Below are positions 7,842 through 27,740 of a stretch of DNA of 64,000 nucleotides, piece after piece. The stretch is from Mycolicibacterium helvum (GTDB lineage Bacteria > Actinomycetota > Actinomycetes > Mycobacteriales > Mycobacteriaceae). Both the position numbers and the translations under genes were made by a program. The DNA lies in contig NZ_AP022596.1 of the NCBI RefSeq assembly GCF_010731895.1, positions 1,302,001 through 1,366,000 on the forward strand. Reading direction: 5' to 3'. Position 1 is the stretch's first letter. Each line of letters starts with the position of its first letter. A model generated the notes under the pieces. That model searched no databases and was not told where the DNA came from. It saw nothing but the letters and a program-made list of their open reading frames with translations.

Positions 7842-8180
7842 CACAAGCCCTTCAATGGTGGATCGACGAAACTCTAGTGGACCGATGGGCAGCGCCGTGG
7901 GCATCAACGGTGGAAAGCACGACAGCCCGACAACCGGGCATGGGCCCGGTGCCGTCGCTCGACGCTCGGGCGGCTCCGGCGCGGTAGCCCGTGACCACCC
8001 AGGGGTCGTCTAACACGCTGATCGCCGATAACGTCGTCAACGACATCACGGTGTACGCCTGGGACCACACAGTCCCGTACCAGAGTGGCGATCCTCTCGT
8101 CCTCGACCGTGGTCGAGAGTTAGGAATGACGAACCGGATCGACCGCGTTCCGGCCCAGGAACCCCGAAGGACGTACTCCG
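7842..8180. other. Intergenic region between divergent TetR and lipoprotein genes
   Basis: 339 bp with no supportable gene. It must contain the promoters of the TetR gene (reverse) and the DUF3060 lipoprotein gene (forward). No clear palindromic operator was recognised. Confidence 0.4.
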
Positions 8181-8579
8181 ATGCACTCCCCCACCCTCAT
8201 CGCCGGCATCGGTGTGCTCGCCGCCCTTGCCTTGGCGGGTTGCGGATCCACCAGTAACGAGACCAACTCCCCGACGGCCACGGCCGGGAAGTCCGGGGCT
8301 CAGGTGGAAGTAGGCAACACCATCAACTACGGCTCGTTCGGCACCACCGCCGAAATCGACTGCGCCGACGGCAAGTCACTTAACGTCGGCGGCTCGAACA
8401 ACACCCTCACGGTCAAGGGCTCGTGCGCATCGGTGAACATCGGCGGCGCCGACAACAAGATCAACTTCGAGAAGATCGACAAGGAACTCTCCGTCGTCGG
8501 CCTCAACAACACCATCACGTATAAGGGCGAGCCGAAGGTGAACAACCTCGGTTCGGGCAATACTCTCAACAAGAGCTGA
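8181..8579 (+). CDS. DUF3060 family lipoprotein
   Basis: 132-residue lipoprotein. The signal peptide ends with the lipobox LAGC, so the Cys at about residue 21 would be lipidated and the protein anchored to the outer face of the plasma membrane. The mature part is a DUF3060-type domain: short repeats with VGGSNNTLTVKGSC, VNIGGADNKINF and VVGLNNTITY, in which N-N-T-I/L-x-V patterns recur about every 20 residues, suggesting a small beta-helix. Such proteins are common in mycobacteria (similar to LpqH-neighbour and Lpp types) and have no known activity. First forward-strand gene of the accessory block. Confidence 0.8.
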   Translation: MHSPTLIAGIGVLAALALAGCGSTSNETNSPTATAGKSGAQVEVGNTINYGSFGTTAEIDCADGKSLNVGGSNNTLTVKGSCASVNIGGADNKINFEKIDKELSVVGLNNTITYKGEPKVNNLGSGNTLNKS

Positions 8580-8666
8580 GCAAGGCGGTCGGGGCTGGGC
8601 GAGCCTATGCCATTCGCCCAATTGCGTGAACGGGGTCACCCGCAGACGAGAGCTAGGACGACTGAA

Positions 8667-9440
8667 ATGAGCGAACTCCGCGGGCGTGACAAATTAATCC
8701 ACGGATATCTGAACCTGCTCGAGGCCTCACTAACGGGAATGCTATTTGACGACGACCCCTGCGATAAATGGTCTGGTGGTTCATTTGATCGAAACACGCG
8801 ACTTTTGGGCCGGGATTGGCCGTCGATATCGTTCTCCATGATTGGGGGCGTCCGTATGCGGAATCTTCGTTACGCATGCGAGACAGTGCTTCTGGACGGT
8901 ATCGAGGGTGATCTCATCGAGACCGGAGTATGGCGCGGAGGGGCATGCATTCTCATGAAGGGCGTTCTCGATTGCTACGGCGAGAAAGCCCGGCGCGTCT
9001 TTGTTGCAGATAGTTTCGCCGGACTTCCGCAGCCAGACCCAGAGCAGTTTCCCCATGACGCAGGCGACCTGCACCATACTTATACCGCACTTGAGGTATC
9101 GAAGAGTGACGTCGAGGACAATTTCCGCCGCTTCGGTCTCCTGGACGACAATGTCGTGTTTCTTGAGGGTTGGTTCAAGGACACGTTGCCCAGCGCCCCG
9201 ATCGATCGCTTAGCGGTATTGCGACTCGACGGTGACATGTACGAGTCGACAATAGAAGCGCTCGACGCGCTGTACCACAAGGTTTCGTATGGTGGTTTCG
9301 TAATCGTGGACGACTACTTCCTGCCACCGTGCGCTCAGGCAATCCACGATTTCCGCGGTCGCCATGGAATCACTGCGCCGATATTGCCTATCGATGGATG
9401 TGGCACCTACTGGCGTGTCGACCACAAGCCGATTCGATAA
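8667..9440 (+). CDS. TylF/macrocin O-methyltransferase family protein
   Basis: 257-residue SAM-dependent O-methyltransferase of the TylF family. The diagnostic blocks are present: MIGGVRMRNLRYACETVLLDGIEGD, then LIETGVWRGGACILMKGVL (SAM-binding), VFVADSFAGLP, and RLDGDMYESTIEALDALYHKVSYGGFVIVDDY, which contains the metal-binding acidic residues. Known members (TylF, NovP, mycobacterial GPL methyltransferases) methylate hydroxyls on deoxysugars attached to macrolides, coumarins or glycopeptidolipids. The frame extends back to 8607, but the ATG at 8667 fits the family. It sits beside several glycosyltransferase genes, so a role in O-methylating a sugar is a reasonable inference. Confidence 0.85.
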   Translation: MSELRGRDKLIHGYLNLLEASLTGMLFDDDPCDKWSGGSFDRNTRLLGRDWPSISFSMIGGVRMRNLRYACETVLLDGIEGDLIETGVWRGGACILMKGVLDCYGEKARRVFVADSFAGLPQPDPEQFPHDAGDLHHTYTALEVSKSDVEDNFRRFGLLDDNVVFLEGWFKDTLPSAPIDRLAVLRLDGDMYESTIEALDALYHKVSYGGFVIVDDYFLPPCAQAIHDFRGRHGITAPILPIDGCGTYWRVDHKPIR

Positions 9441-9544
9441 GGGCACCGACGTCCTTGCAAACTCCGAACCCTGAGAGACCAAACAGGTTGGGACGGTAGC
9501 GATTTCGATCCACGACTGAATGGCACGGGATGGCGCGACGTGGC

Positions 9545-10384
9545 TCAGTCAGGGCCCGCCGGCAAGATGGGTTTCAGGATCTCGGCTTGGCTGCGAGCAG
9601 AGAAAATCCGATGGCCCCGCTCAGCCAGTTCGCGGCGGGCCTTCTCGTCGCCAAGCAGCTCGACGCAGCGATCCACCAGTCCGTCATACTCCGCGAAGGC
9701 GACACCACTCTCTAAGCCGCGTTCCTGCGCCAGATCAGCACTGCGTTCCGAGACAACCGCACGTTTGTTCGCGAGCAGGTAGGAAACTCGTACGATTTCG
9801 AAAACCTTCGCCTGAAAATAATGGATGTTAATAACGATTTTTGACCGGGCAATCCACGCATCCCGGTCTGCGCCGTAAATTCCAAAGATCGATTCAACAC
9901 GGAAGCCCCGGGCCCGCAGCTCCTCGAGAACAGCAAACCGGCGGTCGTTCATGGAACCGTAGAAGAGCACATCGACGTCCTCGGGCCCGGGTGCAATTCG
10001 GGCCAGCTGGGGGACGTATCCGATCGGAACGTGAACGGGCCGGGGCACTCCCCAAGCGGCGAGCCGTTCGATGTTGACCTCGCTATAGTCCCAAACCGGG
10101 TACCGCCGGAATGTTTCGAGCAGCGCAGGGGTCATCCATCCCGAGTCGCTATCCACTTGTTCGAGGTTGTACAGGATGGAATTAGTAGGCGGCTCAATCC
10201 CGAACCTATCCAGGAGGTTGGATCCGAGCACAATGGTGCAGCGGTCGATGAGATCAAGACGATCCGTCAGGATGCAGTCATAGCCCAGCGCCAGCAGTGC
10301 GCAGTGCAGCCCCTCAGCAACCTCGGCAAATGCTGCACTGTGCGCGTAGCCGGGAGCGGACACCACCGCGACGGCAAATCTCAT
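9545..10384 (-). CDS. CgeB-like glycosyltransferase family protein
   Basis: 279-residue protein with the layout of GT-B glycosyltransferases of the CgeB/family 1 type. It has an N-terminal Rossmann-like start (MRFAVAVVSAPG), a central PVHVPIGYVPQLARI segment, then DVDVLFYGSMNDRRFAVLEEL, which opens the second Rossmann domain. The C-terminal domain has SKIVINIHYFQAKVFEIVRVSYLLANKRAVVSE, the position of the nucleotide-sugar-binding loop with the conserved Glu. The ATG at 10384 is preferred over the upstream start at 10420 because it opens directly with the Rossmann strand. Donor and acceptor are unknown. It is convergent with the TylF-type gene. Confidence 0.65.
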   Translation of the reverse strand: MRFAVAVVSAPGYAHSAAFAEVAEGLHCALLALGYDCILTDRLDLIDRCTIVLGSNLLDRFGIEPPTNSILYNLEQVDSDSGWMTPALLETFRRYPVWDYSEVNIERLAAWGVPRPVHVPIGYVPQLARIAPGPEDVDVLFYGSMNDRRFAVLEELRARGFRVESIFGIYGADRDAWIARSKIVINIHYFQAKVFEIVRVSYLLANKRAVVSERSADLAQERGLESGVAFAEYDGLVDRCVELLGDEKARRELAERGHRIFSARSQAEILKPILPAGPD

Positions 10385-11088
10385 AGGGTGCAACGTAACA
10401 GAGCACACTAGCCACCCCATTCCTATTCGGTCGGCCCATAGGAGTGCCGTTGTTGTGCTACTTCGAGTGCTGTGTTCCCGGTGAATGAGGCCATCCAGTT
10501 TCGAGTCCTGCGACCCAATGTCGTAGTTGGAAGTGGCATTCCGCCGAGGACGTCGTGCTCAGGCTGCGCCGTGCCGTGAGTTGGCCAGCGATGGCGCGCA
10601 TGGCTCTCAGCCCTTCCGTTTTCGGGCGAAGGTCGGTTCCGCCGCCGCCGCGGTACCGCGACACCTAAACGTCGCGCCTCTGTCAGCGTGTTTCGGCGGG
10701 ATTGCACGAGGCTCCTCGGCATCGGGATCGGAGTGCGCTTCCAGGCCCCTACGGGCCAACGCGACGTGTCTGACCAGCCAGCGCACGGCGGATGCTGTCA
10801 GCCAGGTGGGCGCTCAGTAGGACAGAACCGCGACAGCACAGAACGCATCAGGTCATCCGCAAGCGATAGCGAACGCGAACGCGTTGGCCAATGCGATCTT
10901 CGAACAACTGAGAATCTCCATAACCGTCAACACCGACCTCCCTCCCATGGCATGCGCACTCCGATACAGTTCGACCTGCTACACCAATCGACCCAACCTG
11001 CGGGCCTGAAAAGAAAGCTGGCGACGCCGCCGAACCGGGGCTCATCAGACTCGCCAGGGCAGATTCAGTGAGTAAGAATTGAGCGATC
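10385..11088. other. Intergenic region upstream of wecB fusion
   Basis: 704 bp between divergent genes. Short open frames occur on both strands but none shows a family motif, a good ribosome site or a codon pattern like the neighbours. It should contain the promoters for the CgeB-like gene and the epimerase fusion. It may be degraded coding sequence. Confidence 0.4.
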
Positions 11089-13065
11089 GTGACACCCACA
11101 GTGTTCGTCATTGGCACCAGACCGGAAGCCATTAAGGTCATCCCCGTCTATCTCGCCTTTCAGCGGGCGGGTATTCCCAGCCTCATCTGCTCCACTGGAC
11201 AGCATAATGACCTCGTCGATGACATCTATTCCCTCTTCGATGTCGCCCCTGATATCAGGCTTTCCATCATGAAGCCGGGCCAAAGCCTCTCATACATCAC
11301 TGAATCGGTTCTGCAGGAGACGCAGAAGTACTTTCAACAGATAAAGCCTTCAATGGTCATCGTCCAAGGTGATACCGCCTCGGCGATGTCGGCCGCACTC
11401 TCGGCCTTTTATTGCAAAATTCCCGTAGGACACATCGAAGCCGGACTTCGTACTCACGACATCTATGCTCCATTCCCAGAAGAGGCCAATCGGCAGATCA
11501 TCTCGCGAATCGCAGAATTCCATTTCGCCCCCACCGATACGTCCGCGGCCAACCTCAGAGCGGAAGGTATCCCCGCCGACAGGATCTTTGTCACAGGAAA
11601 TACCATTGTCGACGCGCTCTACACCATTGTCGATAGACTTAACCAGGGAGCGGTGACCCCTTCGGATAAGGTCCGTCAGACGATGGATAGGCTCAAGCAG
11701 GAAGGGAAATTCACTTTCCTCCTCACCGCACATCGCCGGGAGTCCTTCGATGGCGGACTACACACCATCCTCAAGACGATCAAGGATTACCTTGACGCCC
11801 ATCCGGACGTCGTAGTGCTCTTTCCCGTACACCCAAATCCGGTAATCTCCGCCACCATCCACGATGTCTTCGGAGATCACCCGGGCCGGCTCATGCTCTT
11901 CCCTCCCGTGCCGTATCACGATTTGGTGTACCTCCTCTCGCACGTCGATGGCGTCCTGACCGACTCTGGCGGTATCCAAGAAGAGGCTGTGAGCTTGCAT
12001 CGCCCGACCCTCGTACTGCGTAATGAAACTGATCGGCCCGAAGCCATAGAAAAGCGCCTTGCAGTTCTTGTAGGTACCGATCCCGCTAAAATCATCCGGG
12101 GACTGGATGAGATCCTTGCGCAGCCCTCCCCACCAGATAACTCCGCGAAACAATCCGTCTACGGCGATGGCCGTGCGTCTGAGCGGATCGCCGCCATCAT
12201 CCAAGGCAGCACGCGAGGACGTAGAAAGCGTATTCTGGTGGGTTCGCCTATCCGGCAAACGCCCGACATCTTGATTGAATTCCTTCGCTCCCTTGAGGAA
12301 GTAGACAAGATTTCCTTTGACTTCGACTATCATTTTGTCGACGACAACACTGACTTGAATTCCAGCAAAATTCTGAGCAATTTTGAGGACGTTCATGACG
12401 GGCACTGCTACATCGCAAGGCCGGAAGAAACGCAGGAATCTGCATACGATTCCACTAACGAGGTAACCCATAATTGGTCCGATGATGCGATCTGGAAAGT
12501 AGCAAGATTTAAAGACGGCATGATCGAACATGCCATTAATCAAGGGTACGATTACCTCTTCCTGATCGATTCCGACCTCGTGTTGCAACCCGGCACTCTC
12601 GAGCAATTGATCGCCGATAAAAAAGGAATCGTCTTCAACGTCTACTGGACCTCTTGGCAACCCAACACAGTCGAAATGCCTCAGGTGTGGGTGCAAGACG
12701 AGTACAACTTCTTCGATAGAAGCACAAAGCACAGCCCTTCCGCTGAAGAGCAATCGGCCGCCTATGCTAATTTTGCGACGACCCTGAGAACCCCCGGCGT
12801 TTATGAGGTGGGGGGCGGTGGCGCCTGCACGCTGATCGACCGCGAGACCCTAGTCAAGGGGGTCTCGTTCAAGCGGATACCAAACATCTCGTTCTGGGGT
12901 GAGGATCGCCATTTCTGCGTCCGCGCTGTCGCTTTGGGAGTACCCCTCTACGTCGATACCCACTATCCGGCTTATCACATCTATCGCTCCACCGACCTCG
13001 AAGGCATCGCGGCCTTCAAGCGAAACAGCGTGGAGCCTCAAGCCTCGAAGCCCCTACCGCCTTGA
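11089..13065 (+). CDS. wecB: WecB-type UDP-GlcNAc 2-epimerase fused to a glycosyltransferase-like domain
   Basis: 658 residues in two parts. Residues 1-365 are a complete non-hydrolysing UDP-N-acetylglucosamine 2-epimerase: VFVIGTRPEAIKVIPV at the start, STGQHNDL, VQGDTASAMSAALSAF, VGHIEAGLRT, PFPEEANRQIISRIAEFHFAPT and LTDSGGIQEEAVSLHRPTLVLRNETDRPEA with the substrate-binding loop. The enzyme makes UDP-ManNAc. Residues about 382-650 are a separate domain that opens KRILVGSPIRQTP and contains FLIDSDLVLQPGTLEQL, the DxD-containing strand of GT-A glycosyltransferases, followed by GGGGACTLIDRETL. WecB enzymes are normally about 370 residues, so the fusion is unusual. The local sequence is clearly less GC-rich than the flanking core genes, suggesting acquisition. 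Confidence 0.85.
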   Translation: MTPTVFVIGTRPEAIKVIPVYLAFQRAGIPSLICSTGQHNDLVDDIYSLFDVAPDIRLSIMKPGQSLSYITESVLQETQKYFQQIKPSMVIVQGDTASAMSAALSAFYCKIPVGHIEAGLRTHDIYAPFPEEANRQIISRIAEFHFAPTDTSAANLRAEGIPADRIFVTGNTIVDALYTIVDRLNQGAVTPSDKVRQTMDRLKQEGKFTFLLTAHRRESFDGGLHTILKTIKDYLDAHPDVVVLFPVHPNPVISATIHDVFGDHPGRLMLFPPVPYHDLVYLLSHVDGVLTDSGGIQEEAVSLHRPTLVLRNETDRPEAIEKRLAVLVGTDPAKIIRGLDEILAQPSPPDNSAKQSVYGDGRASERIAAIIQGSTRGRRKRILVGSPIRQTPDILIEFLRSLEEVDKISFDFDYHFVDDNTDLNSSKILSNFEDVHDGHCYIARPEETQESAYDSTNEVTHNWSDDAIWKVARFKDGMIEHAINQGYDYLFLIDSDLVLQPGTLEQLIADKKGIVFNVYWTSWQPNTVEMPQVWVQDEYNFFDRSTKHSPSAEEQSAAYANFATTLRTPGVYEVGGGGACTLIDRETLVKGVSFKRIPNISFWGEDRHFCVRAVALGVPLYVDTHYPAYHIYRSTDLEGIAAFKRNSVEPQASKPLPP

Positions 13066-13095
13066 AGAGTCAACGAGACGAAAGATCGGGGACAA

Positions 13096-13701
13096 GTGAA
13101 ACTCGGCGATAAAGAATTCAACGTGCGCAAATTCTCGTTTTTCTCGAACGAAGATCCCTACGACATGAGATTTGGACACTTGATCTGCTGGTCGCGGATC
13201 TATGAGTATCCGTTTGTGCTTTCCGAAATGCGCAGTCTTGGCGGGAGCGATCTTGTAGTCCACAACTGCTGCTGGGGCTTCACCGATATCCACCTTGTTT
13301 TCAAGACATGGCTCGACATCGAATATCCGGGCACCATCCATTCCGACATCCGCCCCTCAACGCTTTGGAACACCGCGGTCTGGAATGTCGCAAACGAGCC
13401 CACCGAAGCCTACGTCGGCCGGTTCGACGTCGTCATCAACATCTCGACGCTCGAGGAAGTAAATGCCGACCATATCGAGGTCATGAAAAATCACCTCGCC
13501 CAGCTACGCAAGGGCGGCAGATTTATCTGCACATTCGATTTCCCCGGCCTTCAGCTCGACCGCATCGAGGCTTTCCTCGGGGCAAAGATCACTGAGGTGC
13601 CGTCGCGCGTCAGCCCATTGAATTCGCGGCTTCCCAACACGTCGCTCGGCCTGCCCGACGGATTCACCTGCGGCTACCTCGTGATCGAGCGGACCGCTTG
13701 A
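13096..13701 (+). CDS. Methyltransferase-like protein of unknown target
   Basis: 201 residues starting at a GTG preceded by GGGGAC, 30 nt after the epimerase fusion and probably co-transcribed. The fold pattern resembles a small class I SAM methyltransferase: DLVVHNCCWGFTDIHLVFK at the usual motif I position, DIRPSTLWNTAVWNV, then GRFDVVINISTLEEVNADH (motif IV-like), HLAQLRKGGRFICTFDFPG (post-motif) and a final GYLVIER strand. The normal glycine-rich SAM loop (GxGxG) is replaced by a Cys-Cys-Trp-Gly sequence, so SAM binding is uncertain. Similar proteins occur in polysaccharide and glycosylation clusters. Function is inferred from context only. Confidence 0.6.
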   Translation: MKLGDKEFNVRKFSFFSNEDPYDMRFGHLICWSRIYEYPFVLSEMRSLGGSDLVVHNCCWGFTDIHLVFKTWLDIEYPGTIHSDIRPSTLWNTAVWNVANEPTEAYVGRFDVVINISTLEEVNADHIEVMKNHLAQLRKGGRFICTFDFPGLQLDRIEAFLGAKITEVPSRVSPLNSRLPNTSLGLPDGFTCGYLVIERTA

Positions 13702-13757
13702 CGTGGTCGGCGACAGCTGGGAAGCCCGCCGGTGACCTGAGTCAGAATCATCCGCAG

Positions 13758-14849
13758 TTATTCAGTCTCCAACTTCTCGACCGCAAGCCTCAAATTGTCG
13801 GCGAGCCGCTGATCGTCGGGCTCAATCTCAAGTGCTGTCGCGGCATAGTCGCGGGACCGCTCGTAGAGCCCCAACCAATAGCAGGCAATGGCACCCAGAT
13901 CATGTGGACTGGCGCCCCAACACACCTCGTCCCTTAGGTACCCGCTCACATCGTCAGTTATTGCCAGCGTCTTCTCTACCATTGACATAACCAGTGACCA
14001 GTCTTTCCTGAGATAGGCAAGGATGGCCATCGCATAAAACGGCTCTCGAGACTGTGGGCATTCGGCAACGGCCCGATAGAGCCAGACTTCTGCCTGCATC
14101 CCTTCACCCTTGGCTTGGTAGCTTCTGGAGATGAAACGCATTGCTGCACAACGTTCCACATCCCACGTCGCCGCCGGCAGCCTTAGATAATCGTTGAGCG
14201 TTGATATGCACTCATCGTTCATGCCGTAGTACATATATTCACGCCCGAGCCAGAATATTGTCCTGCCGTCCTCGGGGTTTTCCTCCGCGGAAAGTTCCAA
14301 GAGCGGTAGGTACTGGCTCCGCGCCTTTGTTGCGTCCGGATAGTGATGGAGCACCATTCCGTCAACCCACGGGACAGAATGGGGATCGGGACCGTCGTAT
14401 TGCAGGATTTCGTGCACCGGATGCACCCAACGAAAATGTTTGCGCCGGTGTATCTTCTCCATCGGGAATTGTTGCTCGGCAGATCCATCGGCACGATGGT
14501 TCCACACAAAGAGATACCGGGCGTAAGTGGTTTCTGGTTCCCAGGCCGCTTCCAGAGCTTTGCGCCACCCAGGCTCGAAAACCTCATCCAAATCATTGGA
14601 CACGCAGATGTCGACATCCTCTGGAATATGACTCATAGCAATGTTACGGGCGGTATCAAATCGCCAAGGCGTTACGATTTCCTGGTAAACCCTCGCACCA
14701 CGGCTACGAAGTTTCTCGACCGTCGAATCAGTAGAACCAGTGTCTAGGACTACGACGATGTCGGCTTCGTCGACGGCGTCCATCCAGCGGTCGACAAATT
14801 TCTCTTCATTCTTGCAAATTGCATAGACGCAAACCTTGTAACGGCTCAA
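13758..14849 (-). CDS. GT2 family glycosyltransferase with TPR-like C-terminal domain
   Basis: 363 residues. The N-terminal GT-A domain (about 1-190) has the start KVCVYAICKNEEKFVDRWM, DTGSTDSTVEKL, the acidic metal motif in CVSNDLDEVFEPGW, and HPVHEIL. The C-terminal half (about 195-360) is helical with TPR-like pairs, for example TIFWLGREYMYYGMNDECISTLNDYL and LGAIACYWLGLYERSRDYAATALEIEP. This architecture, GT-A plus TPR, is found in protein glycosyltransferases and in surface polysaccharide enzymes, where the helical part binds the acceptor. Convergent with the methyltransferase-like gene. Donor and acceptor unknown. Confidence 0.8.
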   Translation of the reverse strand: MSRYKVCVYAICKNEEKFVDRWMDAVDEADIVVVLDTGSTDSTVEKLRSRGARVYQEIVTPWRFDTARNIAMSHIPEDVDICVSNDLDEVFEPGWRKALEAAWEPETTYARYLFVWNHRADGSAEQQFPMEKIHRRKHFRWVHPVHEILQYDGPDPHSVPWVDGMVLHHYPDATKARSQYLPLLELSAEENPEDGRTIFWLGREYMYYGMNDECISTLNDYLRLPAATWDVERCAAMRFISRSYQAKGEGMQAEVWLYRAVAECPQSREPFYAMAILAYLRKDWSLVMSMVEKTLAITDDVSGYLRDEVCWGASPHDLGAIACYWLGLYERSRDYAATALEIEPDDQRLADNLRLAVEKLETE

Positions 14850-14925
14850 GCGCGGATCCTTTGCACTCTCTCAGTCAAGCCCGGTTTGTATGGAACGGCT
14901 GCGCCCCGAGGATCTCCGAGAAGGC

Positions 14926-16614
14926 TCAGGGATCCTGCTTGACGGCGATAATTTCAGCGAGGGTGGCCGTGGTGCGGTTGTAGTCGTTGATCCGCTTCAT
15001 GTCATACATCGCGGGGCCGGTGGCGGGGGTGGTTGTGAGGGTGTAACGACCGGTGTCTGGGTAGCTGCGGACAATGCTCTGGAGTGCAGATTGGTTATCG
15101 AGTTTGGTGGCGTCGTCCAGGTTGAGGCCGACCTGGTACAGGGCGGGTTCGGTATCGAGGATGGCGGTCAGTCGGCCGACGAGAGGTTCGGGGGCGAAGA
15201 ACTGCCAGCCTTGATCAAGGTGCAGCCAGAATCGGCCTTCAATGGCGTTGTGGATTTGTGTGGGTTCGATGCTGCGGTCTGGGCTGATTTCCAGGAACGG
15301 ATAGTGCTCGGCGAGCCACCTGCGGTCGGCCGTGTCGAGGCCGGTGTCGATTAGCAGGAAGCGGCCGATCCGGTCGATGTCGCTGCAGCAGTTGAGGAAT
15401 GAGTTGAGGGTGAGTTCAACTTGGGAGCGATCGCGACCGGCGATGAAGGTCACTGTGACCTCAGAGTCGGGGGACCCTTGGGTCAGGCTGTGCGCCAAAG
15501 TCTTTGGGTAAGTCCTGCTGATTTCGAGCATTGTGGGCACGGCGAAGTTACGGTTGAGGACGACTCGGCTCCTGGTGACGTCGTTGAGGTCGTCGCTGGC
15601 CAGCAACCGTTGGCAAGCCCTGAATGACTCCTCATGCTTACCCAGCCAAGATGCGCAGATTGCGAGCTCATCGATGGCCGTGACGGAATAGACGCGGCCG
15701 CGAACGAACAGGATGTCGGTAGGCAGCGGGATCTGAGCGGCCTCTTTGGCGAAGAAATAGCCCAACTGCCATTCCCGGTTGGAGCGGTAGTGAGTGGCGA
15801 TAGCGCACAGCGGTTCGGCGCGGACGGGCCGGTAAGCCCATGCTTTGAGGTACGCGTCTTGGACGAGAGGCCAGGGTTCACCGAGTGCGGCCGTGCATTC
15901 GGCGACACGGAGGAGGGAGCAAAAGACTTCTTCGGGCCAGCCGCCCATCTCGGCTCGCCGCGCATACCATTGGCGGGCTGAACGGAGATCGCCGTAGTCA
16001 CGGTAGCTTTGGGCTAGATAGAACACCGACCGATCGTCGTCGGGATTGCGGTGCACCTCGGCCAGCAGTAATTCGGCGTCCCTCAGGTATTTATCGGGGT
16101 CCTGGCTGCGCGCACCGACCGTGCGTGCTTGGATCCAGAAGTCCCCTGGCAGTAGCTCCTCGGTGCAGGGCGTGTCGCACGTGACGTATTCGTGTACCAC
16201 CCCCACCCAGCGCCACGGTAGCCCGTCGCGGAATAGGTGTCTCCGCTGATAGACCAGGTCGCCGTACTTGATGGGGACCTTATAGCTGTCGGCCGTCATG
16301 TTGCTCAGGTCTGGCGTGCCAAAGAGAACGTCGTCGGCATCCATGGTCAATATGTAGTCGGCGTGGCCTTGGGCGAGTTGAACTGCTTCAGTACGGTTGG
16401 CGCCGAAGTTGCGCCACGGCCGCTCGTGTAGGAGCCCAGGGATACCTCGATCGGCAAAGTATTCGCGGATGAGGTCCTGGGTACCGTCATCGGACCCGGT
16501 ATCGACAATCACCCAGGTCGTGATGAATGGCGCGATCGAATCGAACAATTCACGGATGACATGTGATTCGTTACGCACGATCATGTTCAAACAGATCGTC
16601 GGAGTCTTAGTCAT
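14926..16614 (-). CDS. GT2 family glycosyltransferase with TPR-like region and extra C-terminal domain
   Basis: 562 residues. The ATG at 16614 is preferred over the start at 16659 because it has a GGGG ribosome site and gives the same N terminus as the paralogue at 25618-26793. The GT-A domain (1-190) carries ICLNMIVRNESHVIRELFDS, VIVDTGSDDGTQD, NRTEAVQLAQGHADYIL, the metal motif MDADD and GVVHEYVTCD. TPR-like helices follow (about 195-375) with VFYLAQSYRDYGDLRSARQWYARRAEM. Residues about 385-560 form an added domain starting VTVTFIAGRDRSQVELTLNSFL, which looks like a second, degenerate GT-A-type domain; it has no DxD that I can see. 76 nt separate its stop from the gene at 13758-14849. Confidence 0.82.
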   Translation of the reverse strand: MTKTPTICLNMIVRNESHVIRELFDSIAPFITTWVIVDTGSDDGTQDLIREYFADRGIPGLLHERPWRNFGANRTEAVQLAQGHADYILTMDADDVLFGTPDLSNMTADSYKVPIKYGDLVYQRRHLFRDGLPWRWVGVVHEYVTCDTPCTEELLPGDFWIQARTVGARSQDPDKYLRDAELLLAEVHRNPDDDRSVFYLAQSYRDYGDLRSARQWYARRAEMGGWPEEVFCSLLRVAECTAALGEPWPLVQDAYLKAWAYRPVRAEPLCAIATHYRSNREWQLGYFFAKEAAQIPLPTDILFVRGRVYSVTAIDELAICASWLGKHEESFRACQRLLASDDLNDVTRSRVVLNRNFAVPTMLEISRTYPKTLAHSLTQGSPDSEVTVTFIAGRDRSQVELTLNSFLNCCSDIDRIGRFLLIDTGLDTADRRWLAEHYPFLEISPDRSIEPTQIHNAIEGRFWLHLDQGWQFFAPEPLVGRLTAILDTEPALYQVGLNLDDATKLDNQSALQSIVRSYPDTGRYTLTTTPATGPAMYDMKRINDYNRTTATLAEIIAVKQDP

Positions 16615-17179
16615 CTTTCCCCGCCTAGGCAACCAGACCACACTCAATAGCAAACTCATGCTACAAGGCCATCAGATCCAAGACCCCCGTCATCCCACAA
16701 TTTCACTGCGCGACAGCAGATGTGGACCCACGGCATCGTCCCTCCCGATCGACTTAATGAGCATCTGTACAAATGCGAGTCGCGGTTGCGCGACCACGAT
16801 CGACACGGCCGGCTCAGTCTTATCTGAGGACAGCGCAGCGATGCGGCCATCAGCCGGAACTTTGCGATCGTTCAGAGTCGTTGGAGTGCAGGCTGGACGG
16901 ATACGAGATGAGATCTTGCCGCTGCATCAGGCTCCCCGAGCAGCGCGGCCAGGACAAGTACGCGTACGGGATGCTTGGGCATGTCGAAATGACGAGCCAT
17001 CAACGGACTGGCCCTGCTTTTTGCGGTTGAGTTCAACAACTTGCGGCCTTGCGGTACTGGAACCGCACGCGGGCCACGCCGCGTAGCCTATGCGGAAAGT
17101 GCAGTTGGACTTTGCAGGTAACTAGGCCACGAGTGGAGCAGAGATAACAACGGATAGCGATCTGGCTTCCAATGACGTC
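16615..17179. other. Intergenic region between divergent GT2 and secD-like genes
   Basis: 565 bp with no supportable gene. Short frames on both strands lack family features. It must hold the promoters of the divergent glycosyltransferase and SecD-like genes. Confidence 0.4.
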
Positions 17180-18664
17180 ATGGCGCCGGAACCGATATCG
17201 CTTCAGCCGCGTCACCTTCTGATGTTGTTTGTGATCGCGCTGGCCGGGCTCTACCTACTGGTATTCCTGACCGGCGACAGGCAGCCCACGCCCAAGCTTG
17301 GTATTGACCTCGTCGGCGGGACTCGAGTCACCCTGACGACGCGCACCCTCGATGGCAGTTCGCCCACCCATATTGCTCTCAGGCAGGCCCAGCAGATCAT
17401 CGGTTCACGTGTAAATGGCCTTGGCGTTGCGGGCTCAGAAGTGGTGATCGACGGTGACAACCTAGTGATCACGGTCCCAGGCGATGACGGCAGTGCGGTC
17501 CGGAACCTGGGCCAGACTGCCCGCCTTTACATTCGGCCGGTGATCGGGCAGCCCACCCCCGCAGAGATCGCGTCGAAGCCATCTCCCAGCAGTCTGCCGG
17601 CGGCAGCCTCCCAAAAAGACAACCTAACCGCACGAATCGAATTCGAGAAAGAACTGCGTCAGAGCACTGATCCGAACATTCAGCAGTCGGCGGTGCAGTA
17701 CATGGTCAGTCGATGCGGCCAAGAGGACGTGCTCGCGGGTCGTGACGATCCGAATTTGCCCCTGGTGGCATGTTCGGTCGACCACACAACGGTCTACGTT
17801 TTGGACAAGTCCATGATCAGTGGCGACCAGATCACCGATGCGAGTGCCTCACTCAACCAGGATATCTGGGCGTATGCCATCAATCTGGCATTCAACCCCG
17901 AGGCGACTGATACGTGGGCCACCTTCACCACAAACAACGTGGGCAAGTTGGCAGCGTTCACACTCGACTCGCAGGTTGTCAGCGCTCCACAGATCCGCGT
18001 GCCGATCACTAATGGTCGTACCCAGATCGATAGTGGCAAACCAGGTTTCACGGCCGACTCGGCCAAACAATTCGCCGACATCCTCAAGTACGGCTCGCTA
18101 CCACTGTCCTTTCAGACTTCAGAGGCTGAAACCGTTTCAGCCACATTGGGGTTGACTTCCCTGCGCGCCGGGTTGATCGCAGGCGCGATCGGGCTGGCGC
18201 TCGTGCTCGTTTACTCGCTCTTGTATTACCGGTGGCTCGGCTTACTGATGGTGTTGTCGCTCGTTGCCTCCGGCGCCATGGTGTTCGGAATCTTGGTGCT
18301 GTTGGGCAGATACATCAACTACAGCCTCGACTTGGCCGGTATCGCCGGTTTGATCATCGGTATCGGCACGACAGCCGATTCATTCGTGGTTCTCTTTGAA
18401 CGAATCAAAGACCAGACACGCAGGGGCGGCACCACTTTCTGGGAGGCCGTGCCGCGTGGCTGGATTCGAGCCCGCAAAACGATATTGTCAGGCAACGCGG
18501 TTACGTTCCTTGCCGCCGTGGTGCTCTACATCCTGGCGGTAGGTCAGGTGAAAGGCTTCGCTTTCACGCTCGGCCTGACAACGGTTCTTGACGTCGTCGT
18601 GGTGTCGATGGTTACGGCACCGCTGATGCTGATCGCTTCGAAGTCTGAACCGTTCCGGGTTTGA
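17180..18664 (+). CDS. secD: Orphan SecD-like protein-export membrane protein
   Basis: 494-residue SecD. One N-terminal membrane helix (about 11-31) is followed by motif D1 [13 protein letters not shown], the extracytoplasmic P1 base and head (about 60-320; [12 protein letters not shown] and [18 protein letters not shown]), and five C-terminal helices with [16 protein letters not shown] (D4), [26 protein letters not shown] (D5) and [14 protein letters not shown] (D6). SecD works with SecF and SecYEG, using proton motive force to pull exported proteins across the membrane. In mycobacteria secD normally sits in yajC-secD-secF. Here no yajC precedes it and no secF follows, and it is shorter than M. 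tuberculosis SecD as I recall it (about 570). It is therefore probably a paralogue. Its neighbours are glycosyltransferases and a secreted collagen-like protein. Confidence 0.9.
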
Positions 18665-24973
<6,309 letters not shown>

Positions 24974-25564
24974 GTGGCACGAGCTACGCGACATCAGATT
25001 TGGCGGACATTTTTCGCCGTGCTGGCGGTCGTGTCCGTCTTGGCCACGGTTACGCCTTACTTGCTTCGGCTGACATCGTCGCTAGAAATGCAGCGTAGAA
25101 GCGCCACCTCGGTCACTCCGACGACCACCACACCGGTGGTGACCATCAAACCGCTGTCAGTCCGTCCGGTGGTCAGAAGCTCCGCCACCACGCCGACAGA
25201 ATGCCCGGTGACCACCCAGACCCCATCAAATCAGCCGATACAGGCGTGCGACATCGCCAAGACAGCGGTTTACGAACTCGCACCCGAGGCGCTGAACGTA
25301 GATTTGACGAACGTAGGCTCTTTCCGTAATCCCGTCTCCGGTGTCGAGTTGGTGCAGATATCCCTGACTCCGGAATCGGCGAAGCGGTTTGGCCAATTCA
25401 CTGCAAGCCAAGTGGGCCAACAGGTTTCCTTCGTCCGCGGCGGAACAGTGGTATGGGCCGCCAAAATTTCCGCACCGCTAGAAGGTCAGGTGGTGCAACT
25501 GTTCGGCGGGCTGACACCCGAACAAGCCGAGCAAATGGCCCTCATGCTGCGCGACAGCAGCTGA
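24974..25564 (+). CDS. Membrane-anchored protein with a SecD P1-head-like domain
   Basis: 196 residues. One membrane helix (about 12-32) with a short basic cytoplasmic start is followed by a Thr/Pro/Val-rich linker (about 42-85) and a domain (about 88-196) resembling the SecDF P1 head: ACDIAKTAVYELAPEALN, VELVQISLTPESAKRFGQFTAS, VSFVRGGTVVWAAKISAPLEGQVVQLFGGLTPEQAEQMALML. In SecD this movable head binds emerging substrate. Here it is alone, with no transporter helices. The GTG start is 6 nt after TACCTT, a good -10 sequence, so the mRNA is probably leaderless. It lies between the PGRS region and a GT2 gene and may cooperate with the orphan SecD. The role is inferred. Confidence 0.72.
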   Translation: MARATRHQIWRTFFAVLAVVSVLATVTPYLLRLTSSLEMQRRSATSVTPTTTTPVVTIKPLSVRPVVRSSATTPTECPVTTQTPSNQPIQACDIAKTAVYELAPEALNVDLTNVGSFRNPVSGVELVQISLTPESAKRFGQFTASQVGQQVSFVRGGTVVWAAKISAPLEGQVVQLFGGLTPEQAEQMALMLRDSS

Positions 25565-25617
25565 ACCAGCAAGGGGCTACGCGGGACGCGGACGCGTCGA
25601 ACCAGACGGGCGGCGGA

Positions 25618-26793
25618 TCAGTTTCCGGTTGTCTGAAGCTGCTGGGCGGCATCGAGTTCGGCCAGCCGGTCGGCACAGAAATCGCGATTGGCGCTTATCC
25701 TGTTCCGGTCTTCATCGGGAAGGCAATCCTTGGTCAGCAACCACTCGAAAATGGCCAACGCCTGGTCGTTCCTGCCGATCCACGATGCGCACACAGCCAG
25801 TTCGTCCAGCGCACTCCAGGCATAAACCTCAGCGTGGATGAACAGCACGTCGAGTTCGGGTAACGGAATTCTGGCCGCTTGCTCGGCGAACAAGTAGCCC
25901 AGGTGGTAGCGCTCCTCGGTGCGGTAATGGTGGGCGATTGCGAAAAGCGGTTCTGCACGCGTGGGCCGGCACTCCCACGCCCGTAGGTACGCGTCCTGTA
26001 CCTCCTGCCATGGGGCTCCCAGGTGTGCCAATGTCTCGGCCAACCGGAATAGCGAGAAGTAAATCTCCTCGACAAAGCCTGACGTCTCCTCCGCACGGCG
26101 CGCGTACCAGTAGCGTGCGGTGTTGTAATCGCCCAGATCGAAGCAGGATTGGGCCAAATAAAACATGGAGCGAACGTCACTGGGATCGCGTTCAACCTCG
26201 GCTAGCAGCAGATCGCGGTCCCGTTCATACTTCTTCGGATCGAGATTGCGGCTGCCCAAACGACGCGATTCAAGGTGGTATTCGCCGTGCAGTCGATCTT
26301 CGACATACGGCTCGTCACACGTTGCGTACTCATGAACGACACCGACATAGCGCCATGGCAGACCGTCGCGGAACAACTGCGGGCGCCAGTAGCGGAAGTG
26401 CGTTCCGTAGGACAGGGCATACACACCGGCAGTGAGACCGTCGAAGTCGGGTGTACCGAAGACCATGTCGTCGGCATCAATGACCCAGATATAGTCCCCG
26501 CGGCCCTGAGCAAGGGCGAGTGCTTCAGAACGATTGTGGCCGAAGTTCTTCCACGGCCGCTCGTATAGCTCACCCGGAATGCCAAGACCGGCCATGTGGG
26601 CACGGACCACGTCCTGGGTTCCGTCCTCGGAACCGGTGTCGACGATTACCCAGGAGCTGATAAAAGGGGCGACCGCGTTGAGAACTTCGCGTACAACGTG
26701 CGCCTCGTCGCGGACGATCATATTGAGACAGATTGCTGGGCGTCCGTTTCCAGATGCGGGCGCCGCCGTGTCACCTGAATCATGGCTGGGCAT
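25618..26793 (-). CDS. GT2 family glycosyltransferase with TPR-like C-terminal domain
   Basis: 391 residues. The ATG at 26793 is chosen over the 26916 start because AAGGAGGT lies 7 nt upstream. The GT-A domain (about 22-210) has ICLNMIVRDEAHVVREVLNA, VIVDTGSEDGTQD, NRSEALALAQGRGDYI, the metal motif IDADD and GVVHEYATCDEP. Helical repeats follow (about 215-375): MFYLAQSCFDLGDYNTARYWYARRAEE and AEPLFAIAHHYRTEERYHLGYLFAEQAARIP. Very close in sequence to the protein at 14926-16614 but without its extra C-terminal domain, so the two are recent paralogues. It closes the accessory block and is convergent with the SecD-head protein gene. Confidence 0.82.
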   Translation of the reverse strand: MPSHDSGDTAAPASGNGRPAICLNMIVRDEAHVVREVLNAVAPFISSWVIVDTGSEDGTQDVVRAHMAGLGIPGELYERPWKNFGHNRSEALALAQGRGDYIWVIDADDMVFGTPDFDGLTAGVYALSYGTHFRYWRPQLFRDGLPWRYVGVVHEYATCDEPYVEDRLHGEYHLESRRLGSRNLDPKKYERDRDLLLAEVERDPSDVRSMFYLAQSCFDLGDYNTARYWYARRAEETSGFVEEIYFSLFRLAETLAHLGAPWQEVQDAYLRAWECRPTRAEPLFAIAHHYRTEERYHLGYLFAEQAARIPLPELDVLFIHAEVYAWSALDELAVCASWIGRNDQALAIFEWLLTKDCLPDEDRNRISANRDFCADRLAELDAAQQLQTTGN

Positions 26794-26945
26794 GTTCGCA
26801 CCTCCTTCTACGGATTTGAACCCCGCAAACTCGGGGGGAACGTCCACCTGGTCGTGATGCGCTTGTCCACCATACTGGGGAATATCGGGCACTAGCGCGT
26901 TTCCACAGGTGTGCACTGGCCCGCCCGTCCATAGCGACCTGGAGA

Positions 26946-27740
26946 CTAGGCATTCCCACCGTGCCGGCCGGCGCCCTGGGCGAACCGCTGTGCTCCGGCA
27001 AGCGATTCGACGGCCACCCGCGACAGACTGGCGAACTCGAAGTCCATGGCCTCAGCCTCGGACTGCCCCCATTGGTTGAGCATCGACAGTCGATCCGAAC
27101 GCAGACACAGCTGGGGTAGCTGGGCTAACTCGGCGGCCAGTTCCTCGGCGGCCTGACGGGCCTGCCCGGTGGGGACCACCCGGTTGGCCAAACCGATCGC
27201 GAGCGCCTCGTCGGCGTCGACGGCGCGGCCGGTCAGGATCAGGTCCATCGCCCGGCTGTGTCCGATGAGCCGCGGCAGCCGCACCGTGCCGCCATCGATC
27301 AGGGGCACGCCCCACCGTCGGCAGAACACCCCGAACACCGCGTCTTGTTCGACGACCCGCAGGTCACACCACAACGCCAACTCGAGACCGCCGGCCACGG
27401 CATAGCCGCTCACCGCGGCGATGACCGGTTTGGACAACACCATGCGGCTGGGACCCATGGGCCCGGGGCCCGTTCGATGGGTGGGGTTACCCTCGGATGT
27501 ACCGATCGCCTTGAGATCGGCTCCGGCGCAGAAGGTTCCGTGATCGCCCCAGAGCACCGCCACCGACGCGGACTCGTCATTGTCGAATTCCTCGAAAGCG
27601 CGGAACAACGCCAACGCCGTGGGGCCGTCGACGGCATTGCGAGCCTGGGGGCGGTCCAGGATCACTGTCGTCACTGCGCCGTTGCGCTCTACCCGAACCG
27701 ATTCCCCGATCGCTGCGCTGCTGCCCACCGAACCACTCAT
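26946..27740 (-). CDS. echA5: Enoyl-CoA hydratase/isomerase family protein (EchA5-like)
   Basis: 264-residue crotonase-fold protein. It shows VERNGAVTTVILDRPQARNAV at the start, the oxyanion-hole region GTFCAGADLKAI, and AAVSGYAVAGGLELALWCDLRV with the second conserved Gly pair. In RRWGVPLIDGGTVRLPRLIG the position equivalent to the catalytic Glu is Asp, so activity could differ from a typical hydratase. The ATG overlaps the stop codon of the PaaX gene by four bases. Last gene of a four-gene operon in the same order as M. tuberculosis Rv0672-Rv0675, where this position is echA5. Confidence 0.88.
   Translation of the reverse strand: MSGSVGSSAAIGESVRVERNGAVTTVILDRPQARNAVDGPTALALFRAFEEFDNDESASVAVLWGDHGTFCAGADLKAIGTSEGNPTHRTGPGPMGPSRMVLSKPVIAAVSGYAVAGGLELALWCDLRVVEQDAVFGVFCRRWGVPLIDGGTVRLPRLIGHSRAMDLILTGRAVDADEALAIGLANRVVPTGQARQAAEELAAELAQLPQLCLRSDRLSMLNQWGQSEAEAMDFEFASLSRVAVESLAGAQRFAQGAGRHGGNA

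Follow-up and report, generated by a model that had tools for sequence, protein, structure and literature searches.

A mycobacterial gene block that probably encodes a Gly-X-Thr collagen-like protein and enzymes for its glycosylation

Gene content of the locus

The window, a stretch of 64,000 nucleotides, covers positions 1302001-1366000 of the one-contig 6.4-Mb genome of Mycolicibacterium helvum (NZ_AP022596.1), which was judged mycobacterial by its relatives. It holds a block of ten protein-coding genes, including one for a collagen-like protein (COL) and a set of putative glycosyltransferases (GTs). The first-pass annotation, made from the sequence alone, had read it as an accessory module for making, exporting and glycosylating the collagen-like protein. 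All genes named there were present. By gene limits, the block extended from 8607 to 26916, slightly wider than the 8667-26793 given previously. Its GC content outside COL was 53-61%, compared with 62-69% in the flanks.

COL (19097..22561, minus strand) was a secreted-looking protein of 1154 amino acids (aa), consisting of an N-terminal hydrophobic segment, a Ser/Gly-rich linker, a PGRS-like region and a C-terminal tail with 158 Gly-X-Thr triplets. The start codon was the GTG at 22561, with AAGGAG close upstream as a good ribosome site. Inspection of the N-terminal hydrophobic segment, which ends in VLA|DP, suggested that COL may be secreted. The tail began at residue 677 and comprised 159 triplets, of which 158 were Gly-X-Thr (85 GAT, 49 GGT, 12 GET, 10 GST, 1 GPT and 1 GDT) and one was GAI. 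The count of the first-pass annotation was thus reproduced, and the triplets formed one long Gly-X-Y stretch without interruption, nearly all with Thr at Y. At the DNA level, Tandem Repeats Finder reported 79.4 copies of an 18-bp unit at 19105-20533. A Gly-rich open reading frame (ORF) with at least seven consecutive collagen-type triplets occurred in 0 of 60 random 20-kb mycobacterial regions, so the collagen-like character of COL is not a product of chance. The middle of the protein carried 26 GGxGG motifs, a PGRS-like feature that had escaped the first-pass annotation; COL showed no Pfam PGRS repeat above the cut-off and no Pfam PE domain. The protein ended with GATGAIP right after the repeats, with no C-terminal globular domain of the BclA type. 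An antisense open frame of 563 aa with PVAPV repeats (18975-20666, plus strand) mirrored the COL tail. Wobble-base variation in the repeats was considered as proof of the reading frame and left the strands undecided, because the antisense frame shares the wobble position; base variation therefore cannot tell which strand is selected.

Three GT2-TPR genes had been proposed, and Pfam supported them; they are called GTT_A, GTT_B and GTT_C here, and the TPR part of GTT_B was identified by profile and model. GTT_B (14926..16659, minus strand), a presumed protein O-glycosyltransferase, combined a GT2 domain, TPR-like helices and a C-terminal domain. Its paralogue GTT_C (25618..26916, minus strand) shared 56% identity with it across 364 residues and had no such C-terminal domain. 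GTT_A (13758..14849, minus strand) was an SgtA-like GT2-TPR protein of 363 aa and of Clostridia/Bacilli type, presumably a Thr O-glycosyltransferase. Its Pfam Glycos_transf_2 match was just above the cut-off and TPR-type matches were just below it, and profile matches were GmaR and TPR proteins. GTT_A shares the block with COL, which is not its direct neighbour. GTT_B scored 21 bits against the NCBIfam SunS equivalog, whose cut-off is 350, which places it outside the SunS/ThuS group; its fold resembled SunS over 275-285 residues. Reading frames in the block were intact and motifs conserved. The alignments comprised 29 (A1), 15 (A2) and 16 (A3) rows selected from the matches.

The remaining sugar enzymes lay on one side of the GT2-TPR genes. 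EpiGT (11089..13065, plus strand) combined, in one protein, a UDP-GlcNAc 2-epimerase (residues 1-372) with a GT domain (about 382-658) whose predicted fold resembles that of human COLGALT1. The fusion had been recognised before, and its epimerase half matched WecB with an E-value of 2e-113. The GT half was of Clostridia/Bacilli type. It corresponded to the N-terminal GT domain of COLGALT1 only and had no Pfam Glyco_transf_25 match, so the two-domain arrangement of COLGALT1/GLT25 was not found. The CgeB-like glycosyltransferase (9545..10420, minus strand) owes its earlier label to a Pfam match below threshold (E 4.8e-4); it has clear homologues, some of them fused to GTT_B. The gene at 8607..9440 (plus strand) encoded a TylF-family sugar O-methyltransferase, as previously named (Pfam TylF, E 7e-97). 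Its closest solved relatives were an unnamed O-methyltransferase, a mycinamicin macrolide-sugar methyltransferase and NovP. A small protein of 201 aa (13096..13701, plus strand) was methyltransferase-like by eye only; the gene exists, and its label is unproven, with no Pfam, NCBIfam or PDB match. Kinship with one Mesorhizobium methyltransferase was considered for this protein and discarded, since the comparison showed no relation.

Distribution in mycobacterial genomes

GTT_B homologues were present in 31 of 148 same-genus genomes, including the source, and 29 of these were strong. CgeB homologues were found in nine of the 148 genomes, all nine GTT_B-positive (Fisher 1.4e-7); in one of them, G032, identity was only 39% and the gene lay on a different contig. 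Members of the TylF subfamily (E 1e-80 or better) were present in six genomes, each positive for both GTT_B and CgeB. Close relatives of GTT_A were restricted to the source among the 148 genomes, and EpiGT was matched at full length only in the source among 396 searched. In the TylF tree (19 rows, 17 different), a branch with 100/100 support separated ten rows (eight different) from GTT_B-positive genomes and a Mesorhizobium plasmid from nine others. One member of this collagen group, L269, belonged to a GTT_B-positive genome but lay outside the GTT_B loci that were retrieved.

When GTDB representatives were scanned with a profile, 425 GTT_B relatives were obtained, of which the best 80 were kept, giving 79 loci. 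Based on record titles and gene order, they were split into 62 mycobacterial loci, including the window, and 18 other or uncertain loci. Several represented strains of one species or one metagenome-assembled genome and were not independent. As control, 60 random 20-kb regions were taken from 11 contigs of GTT_B-positive genomes. A collagen-like run was detected near GTT_B in 23 of the 62 mycobacterial loci and in none of the controls (Fisher 1.5e-8). PGRS was found in 28 loci versus three controls (1.4e-7), and either feature in 31 loci versus three controls (9e-9). With Thr required in the collagen run, 13 loci and no control remained (7.6e-5). The collagen-run match of L098 overlapped the GT match, lacked a Thr excess and was probably spurious. 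Besides the window, 30 loci bore such a partner. As measured from the GTT_B match coordinates, 19 of them had no called gene between GTT_B and the Gly-rich gene (18 without L098), and 27 had at most one.

Two kinds of partner were distinguished. Secreted-looking PGRS/collagen proteins were encoded in L079, L081, L084-L086, L094, L106 and others; the neighbour in L106 matched Pfam PGRS with an E-value of 3.3e-9. The second kind comprised proteins of PE_PGRS type, the majority of which ended in a short GAQGAQGAHGATG-type stretch, and ten of these loci formed one family. The partner in L122, tested with Pfam PE and PGRS, was a PE_PGRS protein with only a short collagen-like end. In Mycobacterium sp. 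E796 (L132), GTT_B came after a PPE gene and a PE_PGRS-type gene on the same strand, an arrangement that may connect the GT with ESX-exported proteins.

Seven Mycolicibacterium-type loci (L079, L081, L082, L084, L085, L094 and L106) carried the GT with a COL/PGRS gene in the chromosomal surroundings known from the window, on the opposite side of the hydratase-dehydrogenase segment; L118 held the GT alone there. In L042, L049 and L106, the loci examined for this, GTT_B was accompanied by methyltransferase genes or fused methyltransferase domains. The architecture nearest to COL was found in Mycobacterium sp. Actino1 (L105, the same contig as L051), with a secretion-like start, a PGRS-like region and 126 GxT triplets up to the contig end, where the gene is cut off. 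Its neighbour encoded a GTT_B-CgeB fusion, and a TylF gene lay at a greater distance.

Related loci outside mycobacteria

Seven of the 18 other or uncertain loci had collagen runs and nine had collagen or PGRS, eight of the nine with no called gene in between. The GT neighbour was a collagen-like protein in L143, L146, L147, L152, L153 and L156, and three of these loci (L143, L146 and L153) had GTs with a GT25 domain.

Plasmid records matched GTT_B (30), the GT half of EpiGT (10) and GTT_A (3), and the contexts of ten records were opened. A GxT collagen-like gene lay within 3 kb in eight of the ten (Peribacillus, two Priestia, two Mesorhizobium, two Cupriavidus and Methylobacterium); 200 kb from two of these plasmids, used as control, contained no collagen run. 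On the other two, GTT_B-like GTs were located directly downstream of an autotransporter (Citrobacter, L287) or a YadA-type protein (Acinetobacter, L290), and these GTs possibly glycosylate adhesins.

One of these records was the Mesorhizobium plasmid pWSM1497. Its collagen-like gene, cut by the record start, had 54 triplets, 52 of them with Thr at Y. A GT2-TPR protein was encoded 1.5 kb away, and residues 404-802 of this protein matched human COLGALT1 at 3e-40. Next in order were genes for a CgeB relative (44%), a methyltransferase and, at 67%, a TylF relative. Collagen-like gene, GT2-TPR, CgeB and TylF, proposed by the first-pass annotation as parts of one module, thus also occurred together on a plasmid of another genus. 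When the TylF protein of the window was searched against 72,556 plasmid records, pWSM1497 and NZ_CP015065 ranked first; the latter also had GTT_B-like and CgeB-like matches.

Among GTT_A relatives, L274 and L277 (near-copies), L278 and L281 had a GxT collagen-like gene directly adjacent, L279 had one at a distance of 3 kb, and L272 lay beside a second GTT_A-like copy. L279, L272, L274 and L277 were phage or viral contigs on which a GPTG collagen-like gene was near or adjacent to the GTT_A relative, hinting at glycosylation of phage collagen-like proteins. The Bacilli, proteobacterial and phage loci examined shared a neighbour with Gly-X-Y repeats in which Thr occupied many, or almost all, of the Y positions.

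SecD-like genes and flanking regions

The block also contained an orphan SecD (17180..18664, plus strand), an extra copy without SecF, and a SecD P1-head-like protein (24974..25564, plus strand). Both were real by Pfam, as the first-pass annotation had stated. Its inclusion of them in the module was not supported. The SecD-head (E below 1e-25) was found in 26 of the 148 genomes, only four of which were GTT_B-positive (p 0.80), and neither gene had a counterpart in the 79 GTT_B loci. Co-occurrence with GTT_B was seen for CgeB and TylF, nested within GTT_B-positive genomes, and not for the SecD-head, whose family has its own distribution. The orphan SecD was 71% identical to the housekeeping SecD over residues 121-490. 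A supposed orthologue of it in G240 was, judged from its neighbours, the housekeeping secD of that genome. A second SecD-head paralogue of the source genome (G000:C1:6024243-6024803, L078) was located near a gene for about 1184 aa, as in L075-L077.

Upstream of COL lay a gene-poor stretch of 2.3 kb (22652-24974), perhaps a long regulatory region or a remnant of decayed genes; four of its short ORFs had no Pfam match. Across the gene-poor stretches, five ORFs were searched, none with a Pfam match, and no Rfam match was obtained in 8000-27500. By Pfam, the block was flanked by TetR-DUF3060 on one side and by an enoyl-CoA hydratase ... acyl-CoA dehydrogenase segment on the other. Past TetR lay genes which we take to be rpsL and rpsG; rpoC, PaaX and endonuclease IV are likewise presumed names of flanking genes. 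No peptide-synthetase or polyketide-synthase domain was detected by Pfam in the ten block proteins. SecA2, SecY2 and Asp proteins were absent among the same ten proteins by Pfam and NCBIfam, a search that did not extend to the rest of the genome.

Comparison with known systems

Among the closest known counterparts is SgtA of Clostridioides difficile, described as a GT-A plus TPR protein of about 360 aa that is encoded beside the collagen-like BclA3 and, in vitro, attaches beta-O-GlcNAc to the Thr residues of peptides with collagen repeats (PMC7157674). GTT_A, with GT-A and TPR in 363 aa, shares the domain layout published for SgtA, on which the comparison is based. That system involves a Firmicute spore protein and one GT2-TPR, whereas the window has genes for a PGRS/collagen chimera and putative enzymes: three GT2-TPR genes, an epimerase-COLGALT-like fusion and TylF. 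A long GXT run also occurs in the exosporium collagen-like BclA1 of Priestia megaterium, reported with 220 GXT repeats (PMC4674009). BclA-type loci further resemble the window in adjacent GT2-TPR, EpiGT GT-half homologue and methyltransferase genes; COL differs by its N-terminal secretion-like segment, its PGRS-like region and its end in the repeat.

Similarity to the human procollagen galactosyltransferase COLGALT1/GLT25D1 lies in the fold predicted for the GT half of EpiGT and in the COLGALT1-like region of the Mesorhizobium GT2-TPR relative. EpiGT differs in having a counterpart of the N-terminal GT domain only, fused to an epimerase. PE_PGRS and PGRS proteins share the PGRS-like region with COL, and GTT_B relatives adjoin PE_PGRS genes, but COL has a GxT tail and no PE domain. 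Accessory Sec loci encode SecA2/SecY2 and Asp proteins with a Ser-rich acceptor, and these components were not among the ten block proteins. Among the papers listed in literature searches, which excluded preprints and most subscription papers, none dealt with glycosylation of mycobacterial collagen-like or PGRS proteins and none with a general bacterial link between collagen-like genes and GT2-TPR.

Proposed function and alternatives

Taken together, the locus probably specifies a surface protein of collagen-like type along with the cytoplasmic enzymes that glycosylate it. The core of the first-pass interpretation is likely right, with collagen-like protein, GT2-TPR, CgeB-like GT and TylF as a recurrent set, but support is lacking for the export branch. 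We regard the system as a variant of SgtA-BclA whose toolkit is wider than first recognised. This reading draws on the genes, their domains and predicted folds, and on the repeated linkage, in several phyla, between the enzyme families and GxT collagen-like genes. The catalytic steps, acceptor residue, sugars, their order and the surface location are proposed as follows. The TPR helices of GTT_A, GTT_B and GTT_C would hold the extended Gly-rich chain, and these enzymes would put the first sugar, most likely HexNAc, on Thr of the Gly-X-Thr tail, the presumed glycan acceptor. UDP-ManNAc might be supplied by the epimerase half of EpiGT, and further sugars could be added by its COLGALT1-like half and the CgeB-like GT. 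The TylF enzyme would then O-methylate a sugar. COL would exit via its N-terminal signal and be displayed as a glycosylated triple-helical or extended bristle. The SecD genes are not included in this proposal.

Several observations weigh against glycosylation of COL by these enzymes. In 31 of the 62 mycobacterial GTT_B loci, or half, the available DNA contained no collagen/PGRS gene, although some contigs are short. Eight of these loci, found in M. asiaticum-type strains and their relatives, have a common gene neighbourhood (L096, L120, L124, L126, L127, L128, L136 and L137). EpiGT and GTT_A were met with COL in the source genome only, and the full set was seen once. Two of the ten opened plasmids carried the autotransporter or YadA gene instead of a collagen-like gene, and the viral GTT_A relatives L273, L275 and L276 had no collagen gene in the DNA examined. 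In the plasmid search with the CgeB-like GT, five Azospirillum records, whose contexts were not opened, ranked above pWSM1497 and NZ_CP015065. The fold of GTT_B leaves the linkage unfixed, because SunS forms S-linked sugars, and COLGALT1 modifies hydroxylysine in the endoplasmic reticulum, not Thr.

The enzymes may act on the PGRS-like part or on another Gly-rich or adhesin protein, with the GxT tail as a structural spacer. The first-pass annotation had named glycosyltransferases beside a different acceptor as grounds for refutation, and such cases partly emerged: in other species the GT family lies not beside a long GxT protein but beside PE_PGRS with a short collagen-like end (L122), a PPE gene (L132) or adhesin genes (L287 and L290). 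We regard this target as unlikely, since a Thr-rich Gly-X-Y neighbour is common to the Bacilli, proteobacterial and phage loci examined and SgtA is described as modifying collagen-repeat Thr (PMC7157674). Synthesis of a glycolipid, glycopeptidolipid or capsule, with the collagen-like gene as a chance neighbour, would suit the mycinamicin and NovP relatives of TylF. Enzymes of the GT2, CgeB-like and TylF families have small molecules and glycolipids among their substrates as well. The enrichment near collagen-like genes in several phyla, the GT2-TPR relative fused to a COLGALT1 homologue and the lack of peptide-synthetase or polyketide-synthase domains in the ten block proteins make it a rather improbable product.

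A dedicated SecD/SecD-head export branch for COL, alongside glycosylation, is suggested by the position of the two genes on either side of COL, which recalls the accessory secretion loci of Ser-rich glycoproteins. Given the 71% identity of the orphan SecD to the housekeeping copy over residues 121-490, the missing SecF, the lack of association between the SecD-head and GTT_B and the absence of relatives of both from the 79 GTT_B loci, such a branch is very improbable. Even less credit is given to a degenerate island of unrelated, horizontally acquired and partly non-functional cargo. The lower GC content, the 2.3-kb gene-poor stretch and the Clostridia/Bacilli-type GTT_A and EpiGT GT half would fit it, but the frames are intact with conserved motifs, and CgeB and TylF are nested in their co-occurrence with GTT_B.

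Beyond probable glycosylation of COL, several phyla could share a mobile collagen-glycosylation toolkit for Gly-X-Thr proteins, with a GT2-TPR initiator, COLGALT1-like and CgeB-like extenders and TylF-type methyltransferases. In mycobacteria, it would have been extended to PGRS/PE_PGRS surface proteins, making some PE_PGRS proteins glycoproteins. We put this forward tentatively, at somewhat less than even chances. Mycobacterial protein O-glycosylation is described mainly as mannosylation by membrane PMT. If the proposal is true, a cytoplasmic GT2-TPR route for collagen-like/PGRS proteins would be a second mycobacterial route, with a predictable acceptor. It would also provide a substrate class for a family (2855 homologues among 7999 scored candidates) whose 120 listed members are mostly named plain 'glycosyltransferase', and would connect the GxT proteins of bacteria with an enzyme related to animal collagen galactosyltransferase. 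The question of PE_PGRS glycosylation would become directly testable.

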